Made by a program: the position numbers and the translations under genes. Below are positions 5,066 to 43,927 of a DNA stretch of 43,927 bases, one piece after another (positions within the stretch are counted from its first letter, which is position 1; every line of letters starts with the position of its first letter). The notes under the pieces are model-generated. The model saw only the letters and a list, made by a program, of their open reading frames with translations. It ran no database searches and was not told where the DNA came from. The stretch is taken from assembly GCA_013821425.1 (NCBI GenBank), contig JACDGV010000022.1, positions 1-43,927 on the forward strand, read 5' to 3'. Origin of the DNA: Nitrosospira sp. Its GTDB lineage: Bacteria > Pseudomonadota > Gammaproteobacteria > Burkholderiales > Nitrosomonadaceae.

Positions 5066-5659
5066 ATGAACTATTTACTGCGGATATTGCTGCTGTTTCT
5101 TGCTGTTGCCTTGAGCGGTTGTGGCTACAATACCTTGCAGTCCACCGATGAGCAGATTAAAGCGAGTTGGGCAGAAGTTCTGAATCAGTATCAGCGGCGT
5201 GCTGACCTGGTTCCCAATCTTGTAAGCGTAGTCAAGGGTTTCGCTGCGCAGGAAAAAGAGGTGCTGCTGGGCGTGACCAATGCGCGCTCCAGGGTCGGCA
5301 GTATCCAGGCCACGCCCGAACTGATTAATGATCCAGAGGCACTCGCGAAGTTTCAGAGCGCCCAGGGGGAGTTATCGAGCGCTCTCTCGCGTTTGCTTGT
5401 GGTGGCCGAAAATTACCCGCAGCTCAAATCCGATGCTAATTTCCGTGAATTACAGGCGCAACTGGAAGGCACGGAGAATCGGATTACGGTAGCGCGTAAC
5501 CGTTATATCAAGTCCGTCCAGGAGTATAACGTGGTGGTCCGCTCGTTTCCCAGCAATCTCACCGCAATGGCATTCGGTTTCCAGGTGAAGCCTAGTCTCT
5601 CCGTCGAAAACCAGAAAGAAATATCGACGGCTCCCAAGGTGGACTTCAGCACACCTTAG
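5066..5659 (+). CDS. lemA: LemA family lipoprotein
   Basis: LemA proteins are small envelope proteins of unclear function, often encoded with TPM-domain proteins as here. The 197-residue protein starts with a short hydrophobic signal ending in the lipobox LSGC (Cys19), so it is probably a lipoprotein. The LemA core (about 30-190) is clear: NQYQRRADLVPNLVSVVKGF, then LKSDANFRELQAQLEGTENR, then RSFPSNLTAMAFGF. The C-terminus (APKVDF) is where LemA proteins usually end, so the gene is complete. Its TAG stop is formed at the edge of a repeat element: TA from the target and G from the first base of the repeat. Confidence 0.95.
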   Translation: MNYLLRILLLFLAVALSGCGYNTLQSTDEQIKASWAEVLNQYQRRADLVPNLVSVVKGFAAQEKEVLLGVTNARSRVGSIQATPELINDPEALAKFQSAQGELSSALSRLLVVAENYPQLKSDANFRELQAQLEGTENRITVARNRYIKSVQEYNVVVRSFPSNLTAMAFGFQVKPSLSVENQKEISTAPKVDFSTP

Positions 5660-6068
5660 GGAAGCCCTGAACAAGTCCCACGCGGGCGCGACGGGGCTTT
5701 GCGGGATGAGATGCGCGAAAGGCGACAACGCGAATGGTTGATGCCCTTCGTCAGGAGCCTGACAAAGCAGACCGCCCGTAAAGCCCCGTCCCTTCGGGTT
5801 GTGGTAAAATCGGGCACGACCGCGAAGGGCGGAGCAGTGCCTTCCGCAGGAAGGTGCGACCCCAGAGCGGATGCAGGCGCCCCTCGCGGTCAGCATCCCC
5901 GCCGCTGCCCGATCCCCACGTGGCGGGGCCCCTCGGGCAACGCTTTGGGGCGCAACTGCGTTGCACTCCTTGGCATCGTAGACCAAGCTACGACCTGTGT
6001 CGTGCGCCTTGTGAGCATCCCGATTTTAACGGCAACGCGCTCCACGGAGGACTTGTTCAGGGCTTCCT
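5659..6068 (+). mobile_element. MITE-like repeat, copy 1 (complete, 410 bp)
   Basis: The left end reads GGGAAGCCCTGAACAAGTCC and the right end is its inverted copy with one mismatch at the outermost part. A TA dinucleotide flanks both sides (5657-5658 and 6069-6070), which fits a TA target duplication. No transposase is encoded. Compared with copy 2 it carries an extra block of about 76 bases at 5741-5816. Internal hairpins are at 5839-5855 and 5976-5993. The element lies between lemA and the ygcG-like gene and begins on the last base of the lemA stop codon. An open frame crossing it on the minus strand has no stop inside the element and runs into antisense lemA, so it is not called as a gene. 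Confidence 0.85.
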
Positions 6069-6111
6069 TAGCTGGAGAAACCCTCTGGAGCTCGACGAGA
6101 TTCCGCAGTTT

Positions 6112-36462: not shown

Positions 36463-37122
36463 ATGTCCGTCTTGCAGCATACGACTTTTTATACCACCGT
36501 GAATCAGTTGCGCGACCTGCCGCACCCGGATGGGGTGGAAATTGCCTTTGCCGGGCGGTCGAATGCCGGTAAATCCAGTGCAATTAACTCGCTCACCAAC
36601 CGCAACCGACTGGCTTTTATAAGCAAAACGCCGGGGCGCACGCAGAACCTCAATTTTTTCCAGGTAGGGAGCGGACGGTTTCTGGTAGATTTGCCGGGAT
36701 ACGGTTACGCAAAAGTACCGTTTGAAGTTCGCCAGCATTGGGAACATCTGCTGGGCACCTATCTTCAAACACGGGAACCCCTCTATGGTATGGTCCTGAT
36801 CATGGACGTTCGGCACCCTTTGACGCCACTCGACCGGGAGATGCTGGGTTGGTTTGCGCCAACAGGGAAACGGGTGCACGTGCTGCTTACAAAATCAGAT
36901 AAGCTTTCCAGACAGCAGGCAGCGAAAACGCTGAAAAATATGCTGGGTGTTTTAGGCGAAACTTATCCGCAATGCAGCGTACAATTATTTTCCAGCGCAA
37001 CCAGGGAAGGTGTGGAGGAAGCTTCCGCCTTGATTGAGAAGTGGCTGGAAACGGCCGACTTGCCGCCCAAATTCATGCCACCTGAGAACGAAAATAAAAA
37101 ACCCCCGGTTAAAGGGGAATAA
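36463..37122 (+). CDS. engB: GTP-binding ribosome assembly protein EngB (YihA/YsxC)
   Basis: EngB is an essential GTPase that helps large-subunit assembly. The 219-residue protein has G1 GRSNAGKSS at about 31-39, the G2 threonine in [14 protein letters not shown]3 [12 protein letters not shown]4 TKSD and G5 SSATREG. ATG 36463 gives the usual family start; an in-frame TTG seven codons upstream is less likely. Two hairpins follow the gene. Confidence 0.96.
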
Positions 37123-37131
37123 AACCGGGGG
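37102..37131. terminator. Hairpin at the engB 3' end
   Basis: CCCCCGGTT (37102-37110) pairs with AACCGGGGG (37123-37131) around a 12-base loop that holds the engB stop codon. It lacks a T-tract, so termination is plausible but not certain. Confidence 0.55.
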
Positions 37132-37136
37132 CAAAC

Positions 37137-37158
37137 TACCTTAATAGGGATTAAGGTA
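37137..37158. promoter_or_regulatory. Perfect inverted repeat between engB and hemB
   Basis: TACCTTAAT (37137-37145), loop AGGG, then ATTAAGGTA (37150-37158) is a perfect 9-bp stem five bases after the engB hairpin. It is AT-rich and could be an operator for hemB rather than a terminator. Confidence 0.45.
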
Positions 37159-37191
37159 CCCGCTCAGGGAGGAAAAGCGGGAGACAATTAA

Positions 37192-38289
<1,098 letters not shown>

Positions 38290-38529
38290 GGTTAACGACA
38301 ACCGCACGATATTACCGAAGATCCCGGCTCACAAGAGTCATGAGGAAAGTCGTGGCCTCAGGGAGAGAAGGTCCTCCTCAGGAGTGAACGTCCAGGAGTG
38401 GAAAAATGTTATCGGCAGCCCGGTTTAGGGTTCCTGGCCGCAACCATAAACCATAATCATAATCAATAACCACCGATCAATAGCAATAACTCGCCGGGGG
38501 GATGCGGGGCAATTGCCTCGCGACCGTTA

Positions 38530-38876
38530 GGGAAGCCCTGAACAAGTTCCACGCGGGCGCGACGGGGCTTTGCGGGATGAGATGCGCGAAAGGCGACAAC
38601 GCGAATGGTTGCGGCCGCGCAGGCCGGAGCAGTATCTTCCGAAGGAAGATGCGACCCCGCAGCGGGATGCAGGCGCCCAAGGAGACGTAAACGCGGTCAA
38701 GCATCCCCGTCGCTGCCCGGTCCCCGCTACGCGGGGCCCCTCGGGCAACGCTTTGGGGCGCCACTGCGTTGCACTCCTTGGCATCGTAGACCAAGCTACG
38801 ACCTGTGTCGTGCGCCTTGCGAGCATCCCGATTTTACCGACAACGCGCTCCGCGGAGGACTTGTTCAGGGCTTCCC
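38530..38876 (+). mobile_element. MITE-like repeat, copy 2 (complete, 347 bp)
   Basis: It has the same orientation and the same 20-bp terminal inverted repeat as copy 1, with TA on both flanks (38528-38529 and 38877-38878). Its right end lies on the stop codon of mrcA: read on the minus strand, TA plus the first G of the element gives TAG. It lacks the 76-base block seen in copy 1 and differs by other small gaps. Internal hairpins are at 38634-38650 and 38784-38801. It carries no transposase. Confidence 0.87.
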
Positions 38877-41200
38877 TAGTGTGACAGAAACTCCCTTATT
38901 ATGTCTTCGACCGATCTCACGGTTTCATCCACGTGATCGTCCGCTTCGGGCGGTAGCTGCTCTTCCAGGAAATATTCCGTCATTGTACCGCTATCTCCCC
39001 TCAAACCGGTTTCGGGGTTTATTTTCGCTGTTGTAATGCCGGGTGGTGGCGTATACGCTGCAACCGGAGTGCCCTTCAATGCTTTCCCCATATAGCTCAT
39101 CCACATCGGCAGGGCCGCGCGGCTCCCGGTTTCGTTATTTCCCAAGGATCGGGGGTTGTCAAAGCCGATCCAGGCAATAGCGACCAGATCGGCCTGATAC
39201 CCACAAAACCATGCATCAACATAATTGCTCGTGGTGCCCGTTTTCCCCGCCAGATCAGTACGGCCCAATTGTCGTGCCTGGGTTGCGGTTCCTCTCTGCA
39301 CCACGTCCTGCATCATGCTGGTCATAAGAAAGGCGTTGCGAGGATCTATGATTTGTTTTGCGTTTTTTCCTGCTGCCACCGGTTGTATTTGCTCCAGTAT
39401 GTTGCCTTTCTCGTCTTCTATGCGCTCGATGAAATAGGGGGAAATTCGAAAACCCCCGTTAGCAAAAGCCGCGTAACCTACCGCCATCTGCAACGGTGTC
39501 ACAGACCCCGAGCCCAGCGCCATGGTCAGATAGGGGGGGTGCTGCTTGGGGTCGAAACCAAAGCGGGCGACGTAATCCTGCGCATATTGAACGTCTATCG
39601 ACTGCAAAATGCGGATGGATGCCAGATTCTTGGATTTAGCAAGTGCTTCGCGCAGGCGCAACGGTCCTTCATAATTGCCATCATAATTTCTGGGATCCCA
39701 CTGCTCTCCCCCGGTTTCTTCCGCAGTGAAAGATAGCGGCGCATCGTTGACGACGGTTGCCGGCGTAAAGCCCTTCTCAAGGGAAGCGGAATAGATGAAC
39801 GGTTTAAAACTGGAACCTGGCTGGCGCCATGCCTGGGTAACGTGGTTGAATTGACTGCGATTGAAATCGAATCCCCCCACCAAGGCCCGGATAGCCCCAT
39901 CTTGCGGATCTATCGCTACCAACGATGCCTCGACCTGCGGAAGCTGTACGATTTGCCACGCGCCCTTATCACTCTTCCGAACTCGTATTAACGAGCCCGG
40001 ACGAATATTCTGCTGGCTCGAAACAGCCTTGTCGTTCAAAAATTTTTGCGCGAATTTGAGGCCGTCCCCACTGATCTCGATGACTTCGCCACCCTTGCGA
40101 TAGGCTCTGACCAGCTTCGGATCTGCGGCCACTACCACGGCGGCATAAATATCACCGCTGTCGGTGACCTCCTGCAGCGCATCCTCGAGTATCTCCTCCC
40201 GGTCCAAACCATTCTTTTGCAAATTAATTACAGCTTCGGGGCCCCGATATCCATGGCGCCTGTCGTAATCCATCACGCTCTGCCTTACCGCTTTATTGGC
40301 GGCCTCCTGATCCAGTTGCCGGACCGTGGTATAAACTTTAAAACCTTTACTGTACGTATCTTCCTGGTAGCGGCGATATACTGTCTGGCGCGCCATTTCC
40401 GCCACGTAGTCCGCACGCACCGGGAATTCCTGCGATTCCCGCTTGACATGCAGCGTATGCTTTTCCGCTTCCTTGAACTCGGGGCTTGAGATATAGCCGA
40501 GTTCGTGCATGCGCCGGAGTACGTAAAGTTGCCGGGTTTTTGCGCGCTTGGGATTGACTACCGGGTTGAAGCGTGAAGGTGCTTTCGGTAGTCCTGCCAG
40601 CATTGCCGCTTCCGCGAGGTTAATATCATTCAGCGTTTTGCCAAAGTAAACCTGTGCGGCGGCGGCAAAGCCATAAGCACGCTGCCCGAGATATATCTGA
40701 TTGAAGTAGAGCTCGAGGATTTCATCCTTGCTGAGGCTGTGTTCAATCTTGAACGCAAGCAAAGCTTCGCTGAATTTTCGAGTCAGTGTTTTTTCCTTGG
40801 TTAGAAAAAAATTACGCGCGACTTGCATAGTGATAGTACTGCCGCCCTGTCGTACCCCGCCGGAAGTAAAATTGGAATAGGCTGCACGCAATACACCCGT
40901 GTAATCGACCCCGCCATGCTGGTAAAACCGGTCGTCCTCGGCAGCCAGAATAGCCTGCTTGAGGCGCTCGGGAACGTTACTGATCTTAACCACTTTCCGG
41001 CGCTCTTCGCCAAACTCTCCGATAAGGATTCCTTCGGCGCTGTAAACCCGCAAAGGGACTTTTGGGCGGTAGTCGGTCAACGCTTCAAGGGAAGGCAGCG
41101 TGGGGATTGTAACCAGGGCCGCAAAGCCAATCAGCAAAACTCCCAGAAGGCCCAATGCAAAAACGCCGGCGAGCAGGTAAACCCACCAACGCGTCAGCAT
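38876..41200 (-). CDS. mrcA: Penicillin-binding protein 1A
   Basis: This bifunctional enzyme polymerises and cross-links peptidoglycan. The 774-residue protein has an N-terminal membrane anchor (about 8-30), a GT51 transglycosylase domain (about 60-230, with EDDRFYQHGGVD and QGGSTITMQVARN), an OB-like insert, and a transpeptidase with SSFK near residue 463, SKN in the KSKNLASIRI stretch and KTGTT near 650. Its TAG stop is built from the edge of repeat copy 2, but the C-terminus looks complete. The 272 bases upstream to the SirB2 gene show no supported gene and no pilM, which often lies divergent to mrcA. Confidence 0.96.
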   Translation of the reverse strand: MLTRWWVYLLAGVFALGLLGVLLIGFAALVTIPTLPSLEALTDYRPKVPLRVYSAEGILIGEFGEERRKVVKISNVPERLKQAILAAEDDRFYQHGGVDYTGVLRAAYSNFTSGGVRQGGSTITMQVARNFFLTKEKTLTRKFSEALLAFKIEHSLSKDEILELYFNQIYLGQRAYGFAAAAQVYFGKTLNDINLAEAAMLAGLPKAPSRFNPVVNPKRAKTRQLYVLRRMHELGYISSPEFKEAEKHTLHVKRESQEFPVRADYVAEMARQTVYRRYQEDTYSKGFKVYTTVRQLDQEAANKAVRQSVMDYDRRHGYRGPEAVINLQKNGLDREEILEDALQEVTDSGDIYAAVVVAADPKLVRAYRKGGEVIEISGDGLKFAQKFLNDKAVSSQQNIRPGSLIRVRKSDKGAWQIVQLPQVEASLVAIDPQDGAIRALVGGFDFNRSQFNHVTQAWRQPGSSFKPFIYSASLEKGFTPATVVNDAPLSFTAEETGGEQWDPRNYDGNYEGPLRLREALAKSKNLASIRILQSIDVQYAQDYVARFGFDPKQHPPYLTMALGSGSVTPLQMAVGYAAFANGGFRISPYFIERIEDEKGNILEQIQPVAAGKNAKQIIDPRNAFLMTSMMQDVVQRGTATQARQLGRTDLAGKTGTTSNYVDAWFCGYQADLVAIAWIGFDNPRSLGNNETGSRAALPMWMSYMGKALKGTPVAAYTPPPGITTAKINPETGLRGDSGTMTEYFLEEQLPPEADDHVDETVRSVEDIIREFLSH

Positions 41201-43649: not shown

Positions 43650-43751
43650 GATGTCTCCTCGTTTCAAGAAGTGCGTGTGTAGATAGTAGAAAAAAAGGGC
43701 ATTTTTCACAGTGCGGTAGCCAACGTAGGGGGCAGGCCGATGGAGGGTTTA

Positions 43752-43927
43752 AGAAAGCCCTGAACAAGTCCCGCGCGGAGCGCGTTGAGGTAAATCGGGA
43801 TGATCACAAGGCGCACGACACAGGTCGGAGCTTGGTCTAGATGCCAGGGAGTGCAACGCGGTGCGCCCTAAAGCGTTGCCCGAGGGGCTCCGCCAGGGCG
43901 GATCGGGCAGTGGCCGGGATGCCGGAC
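43752..43927 (-). mobile_element. MITE-like repeat, copy 3 (inverted, cut by window end)
   Basis: The sequence from 43752 matches the reverse complement of the right part of copies 1 and 2: the end reads AGAAAGCCCTGAACAAGTCC, followed by the conserved ACAAGGCGCACGACACAGGT and AAAGCGTTGCCCGAGGGGC stretches. TA (43750-43751) precedes it. It is more diverged than the other two and the hairpin seen at 5976-5993 is broken here. It lies about 100 bases upstream of the HdeD gene. The far end is beyond the window. Confidence 0.8.

Follow-up and report, generated by a model that had tools for sequence, protein, structure and literature searches.

Two MITE copies abut the stop codons of lemA and mrcA

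The window, by which we mean the whole 43,927-bp stretch of Nitrosospira sp. DNA analyzed here, carries two complete copies of a short inverted-repeat element together with the beginning of a third, and its relevant features are as follows.

5066-5659, plus strand: lemA open reading frame, with its TAG stop (5657-5659) inside the left target duplicate
5656-5659: left target duplicate TTAG, the same as 6068-6071
5660-6067: complete MITE copy, 408 bp, inverted ends GGAAGCCCTGAACAAGTCC
6068-6071: right target duplicate TTAG
38527-38530: distal target duplicate TTAG of the mrcA copy
38531-38875: complete MITE copy, 345 bp, inverted ends
38876-38879: mrcA-side target duplicate CTAG, 1 base different from the distal TTAG
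38876-41200, minus strand: mrcA open reading frame, with its TAG stop (38876-38878) inside the target duplicate
43749-43927: third copy, with TTAA at 43749-43752 and the element from 43753, ended by the contig end; not on a stop

The lemA gene ends in CCT TAG followed by GGAAGCCC, and mrcA, on the minus strand, ends in CAC TAG followed by GGAAGCCC, so that GGAAGCCCTGAACAAGTCC stands directly after both TAG codons. The sequence thus bears out the first-pass annotation, which had placed complete copies against both stops; its count of two out of two holds for the complete copies, while the contig-cut third one lies off any stop. Within the window, nine stops have the form YTAR, including both struck ones, alongside 77 other YTAR sites in spacers.

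Both genes had been called full length, their stops struck rather than their reading frames truncated, and this was upheld by the open reading frames, by family matches and by comparison with relatives. LemA (PF04011, Pfam) was matched at 3.1e-55 up to the last model position, and the Pfam families Transgly, PCB_OB and Transpeptidase were matched in mrcA. When the gene ends of relatives were aligned by eye, the last mrcA residue coincided in 21 of 21, of which 8 have YTAR at the stop; for lemA the agreement with relatives was partial, the end residue being shared by 13 of 22 (YTAR at the stop in 4) and the remaining 9 running 4-5 residues further. In no relative compared was the element seen within 42 bases 3' of the lemA or mrcA stop, and a plasmid search returned nothing beyond two lemA matches.

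The 345- and 408-bp copies hold only short open reading frames, and no transposase-type match was found on the window's contig with PF01609 or with the transposase of an autonomous relative (L326, described below) as query. For the lemA copy, folding predicts a hairpin of very high stability (-231.9 kcal/mol, z -10.3), and no terminator-like site was found between 5500 and 6300. A 137-bp internal module of this copy (5817-5953) is also present, at ~80% identity, in the complete genome G006, at all 12 of the 12 loci retrieved (L411-L422), in a repeat whose ends are quite unlike those of the lemA copy; one core is thus common to two element families. Elsewhere, the loci L100, L089 and L239 are very short palindromes of ~30 to 57 bp with little beyond the two element ends. 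A separate feature of the window, at 37094-37184 on the minus strand, matches the Rfam anti-hemB RNA (RF02837) at 80 bits, above the gathering score of 49.5.

An IS5-type relative and the spread of the element

The ends recur in L326, an element of 1167 bp from a gammaproteobacterial MAG: its 18-base ends are those of the MITE, 1 mismatch in one of them aside, CTAG flanks it on both sides, and it encodes an IS5 transposase (NF033581, 6.7e-95, 285 of 285 positions, above its cut-off). The own genome holds two short remnants of such a transposase, ~150 bp inside element ends, and no intact one was found there or in a second Nitrosospira genome, G005. A search with the L326-type transposase gave no match in G005, G041 or G043 and one remnant in G042, behind a stop-hit end (L400, L423). 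Judged by their ends and this relative, the window copies are classed as non-autonomous IS5-group MITEs of 345-408 bp, an ordinary kind of element.

A search of the own genome (66 contigs, 3.14 Mb in total) for AAGCCCTGAACAAGT with at most 2 mismatches gave 96 sites, of which 36 match exactly; the reversed control gave 18. Of 22 other genomes from the genus, 21 gave a match to the element, as did 2 of 18 more distantly related genomes, and the four bases outside its ends are frequently YTAR. Nine further Nitrosospira genomes gave 46 end matches (0 to 15 per genome); the 30 loci taken from them yielded 26 distinct ends, 7 of which had YTAR, and the count of 1 in these 7 on a stop covers eight genomes with few copies each. 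One more of these ends stood at a TGA stop without YTAR.

The target is YTAR and is duplicated as 4 bp

The first-pass annotation had taken TA as the target and G as the first base of the element. In TA-target elements of the IS630/Tc1 type the duplicate is TA alone and the next base is the element's own. Five genomes together supplied 64 intact pairs. In these, the fourth base on the left was G 36 times, A 27 times and T once; YTAR stood on both sides in 40 of the 64, and the two 4-mers were identical in 33. On the fourth base and this 4-mer agreement the TA-only target was rejected. The target is instead the duplicated YTAR, of which the G is a part, and the stop is native to the gene. The lemA copy has TTAG on each side, and the mrcA duplicate is imperfect, as TTAG stands on one side and CTAG on the other.

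Since insertion duplicates the four target bases, the stop is preserved, and with all four YTAR bases supplied by the target, any TAR in frame must already have been a stop before insertion. The prediction that insertion at a TAA or TAG would always leave a TAG is consequently contradicted: the 4-bp duplication retains either codon unchanged, and TAA stops remain TAA at L069 and L099.

Gene calls and scope of the counts

Genes were called with our own codon-score caller rather than a published one, and its threshold shifts the stop share of neutral sites (for CTAG in the own genome, from 0.123 to 0.162). The background was taken from the flanks of copies. The counts exclude ends with more than 2 mismatches (for example L264, on a stop in G005), cases with an open reading frame without a called gene (L070, L092, L232, L283), shifted ends (L095, L120, L106), insertions inside genes (3 each in the own genome and G005) and the numerous Nitrosospira insertions without YTAR (18 in the own genome, 22 in G005). 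The stratified test additionally excludes 8 locus-edge insertions.

Stop hits exceed the background unevenly between genomes

The own genome had 6 stop hits among 34 non-coding YTAR insertions, whereas the stop share of neutral YTAR sites is 7.5% (P = 0.04). The corresponding count in G005 was 20 of 59 (21 of 60 in a variant run) against 6.8% of neutral sites (P = 1e-9), the hits comprising 12 among 22 solo ends and 8 among 37 pairs. In three other proteobacterial MAGs, possibly related to each other, 8 of 16 insertions struck stops against 11 of 80 neutral sites, a background that includes 13 added loci and is 2 of 25 without them. When only 3' flanks of up to 100 bp were considered, the excess was absent from the own genome (6:11 versus 46:114, P = 0.58) and present in G005 (20:10 versus 20:42, P = 0.003). 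At seven G005 loci (L219, L221, L250, L253, L268, L275 and L288), only 22-50 bp of one element end lie immediately behind a stop and are followed by unique DNA.

For several other stop-hit genes, too, family models fit a native stop: PrpD, PheT and mannose-1-phosphate guanylyltransferase were matched above cut-offs to the last model position, and RsmG, IspB and PurF to the last-but-one. In G005, 24 stop-hit proteins were scanned and 6 had no family match, and so no statement is possible on the ends of these 6. Three MAG copies (L383, L389, L409) have a stop at both ends; here two convergent stops overlapped by 4 bp, this overlap was the target, and each of the duplicates retains the stop of one gene. 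The genes at these copies include LolD, a FabF-like and an ArnD-like protein.

Spacer type and reading frame

Pooled over genomes, 36 insertions were observed in convergent spacers, where 17.7 would be expected (odds ratio 3.5, P = 1e-7). The convergent share was 16 of 36 insertions against 24 of 325 background sites in the own genome and 6 of 14 against 9 of 69 in the MAGs, and it was not significantly raised in G005 (14 of 58 against 21 of 123, P = 0.31). Once the data were stratified by genome and spacer type, the own genome lost its stop excess (odds ratio 1.1, P about 1), as its insertions concentrate in convergent spacers. The excess persisted in G005 (odds ratio 5.0, P = 7e-4) and was of similar size in the three MAGs without reaching significance (4.8, P = 0.07); the pooled value was 3.0 (P = 6e-4), or 2.6 with intact pairs alone (P = 0.03). 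The genome-wide mapping of copies that had been proposed as a check thus gave a raw excess in the own genome that stratification removed. AT-rich flanks were rejected as a cause: G+C at non-stop paired insertions was not below that of YTAR sites in background spacers (G005, 0.474 versus 0.470; own genome, 0.544 versus 0.505; MAGs, 0.538 versus 0.434, the last from only 4 insertions).

The element end offers TGA at bases 9-11 in one frame (RGG AAG CCC TGA). Tail insertions fell in this frame in 11 of 12 cases against 47% expected (P = 0.002), a count from which L116 (3 mismatches) was dropped, in which L308, in a relative, was not included, and to which L257 is the sole opposing case. Five of the 11 come from the own genome, 4 from G005 and 2 from the MAGs; some, namely L091 and L266, are without YTAR or without a family match. 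At serS in the own genome (L101, 1073-2434), the last residues, R-K-P, are encoded by the element and followed by its TGA, a small change to the tail of a seryl-tRNA synthetase.

Targeting, survival and the remaining excess

The two hits in the window are as expected from YTAR targeting, a 4-bp duplicate and the survival of harmless insertions. IS5-group MITEs would insert at YTAR and duplicate its four bases. Read on either strand, YTAR contains TAR; a TAA or TAG stop would therefore be a legal target wherever C or T precedes it, and duplication would leave the stop whole beside its gene and the protein unchanged, as the anatomy indicates and, for lemA and mrcA, the relatives as well. Site statistics and frame bias suggest that insertions elsewhere in genes are mostly purged and that survivors lie at the 3' ends of genes, chiefly where two genes converge; such survival would make exact stop hits common. 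Motif and purifying selection would be sufficient for the own genome, and stops appear to exceed that expectation in G005 and perhaps in the three MAGs. We regard as probable this reading, in which the extra stop hits of G005, and perhaps of the MAGs, have another cause. The pattern is thus mainly one of target motif and purifying selection, and the stop excess elsewhere is unexplained. Of the two suggestions in the first-pass annotation, selection for harmless insertion gained support from the convergent and tail-frame biases; target preference, with spacer type accounted for, found none in the own genome, support in G005 and a suggestive value in the three MAGs.

Counting against the preferred reading is the fivefold stratified stop excess of G005, which comes without a significant convergent bias, as does the pooled excess among intact pairs. 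The many insertions without YTAR, the imperfect mrcA duplicate, the longer lemA of 9 relatives and the failure to find an intact transposase of this kind in the own genome or G005 also weigh on that side. The IS5-type machinery might instead prefer stops or gene ends beyond YTAR, for example through DNA structure or translation or transcription ends. The G005 and MAG hits and the pooled stratified odds ratio favor such a preference, as does the fact that flank G+C does not account for the G005 excess, but the own genome lacks an excess, the MAG set alone falls short of significance, only 1 of 7 YTAR ends in the eight other Nitrosospira genomes lies on a YTAR stop, and solo ends make up 12 of the 20 G005 hits. 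Surviving copies cannot tell a preference from selection. We consider such a preference unlikely. The G005 stop excess, solo ends included, goes beyond the effects tested.

That copies behind stops were retained for use, with the long hairpin terminating transcription or shielding mRNA 3' ends, is very improbable: the predicted stability of the lemA hairpin, the frequency of stop hits between convergent genes and the persistence of short solo ends directly behind stops in G005 would fit it, but no terminator-like site was found at the lemA copy and solo ends of 20-50 bp have no long hairpin. Hardly any probability attaches to the element having created the stops by truncating longer genes. The longer lemA of 9 of 22 relatives could be read that way, and the 11 tail insertions form a separate class that does end genes at a TGA within the element; against this stand the shared end residue of mrcA in every relative and of lemA in 13, and, given the 4-bp duplicate, an in-frame TAR that was a stop before insertion.

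Taking targeting and survival as the preferred reading, a target motif this short and its duplication as 4 bp would turn stop codons into scar-free landing sites, and an element in a gene tail seems to be tolerated chiefly when the reading frame meets the stop that its end provides. A further-reaching view, which we hold to be doubtful, is that stops serve as safe harbors for an IS5-derived family, combining a palindromic YTAR that reads as a stop on both strands, a duplication that gives each of two convergent genes its stop, a TGA in a second frame and a machinery that favors gene ends. If the extra excess is real, it would be a simple means for mobile elements to spare their host, and the G005 stop excess, including the short solo ends behind stops, is the part that deserves follow-up.

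Comparison with known systems

The duplicate at the window element is not the TA alone of the IS630/Tc1 type. IS5 of Escherichia coli, of the IS5 group in the IS5 family, shares the 4-bp YTAR duplicate with the window copies, and the autonomous relative with its IS5 transposase ties them to this group, although at 345-408 bp and without a transposase they differ from IS5 itself. The IS5 end begins with GGAA and has a GAACAAGT-like stretch, as the ends of the window element do. Duplication of YTAR on insertion is described for IS5 in one paper (PMC10359306), and the 4-bp YTAR duplicate of the IS5 group in another (PMC11677980). One search of a limited collection of papers found none on miniature inverted-repeat elements in Nitrosospira, and we do not claim that stop-codon insertion is absent from print. 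Like bacterial MITEs, the window element is short and non-coding, with inverted ends, target duplicates and tens of copies; unlike them, it has a 137-bp internal module that recurs in a repeat family with other ends, and it often lies exactly on stop codons.
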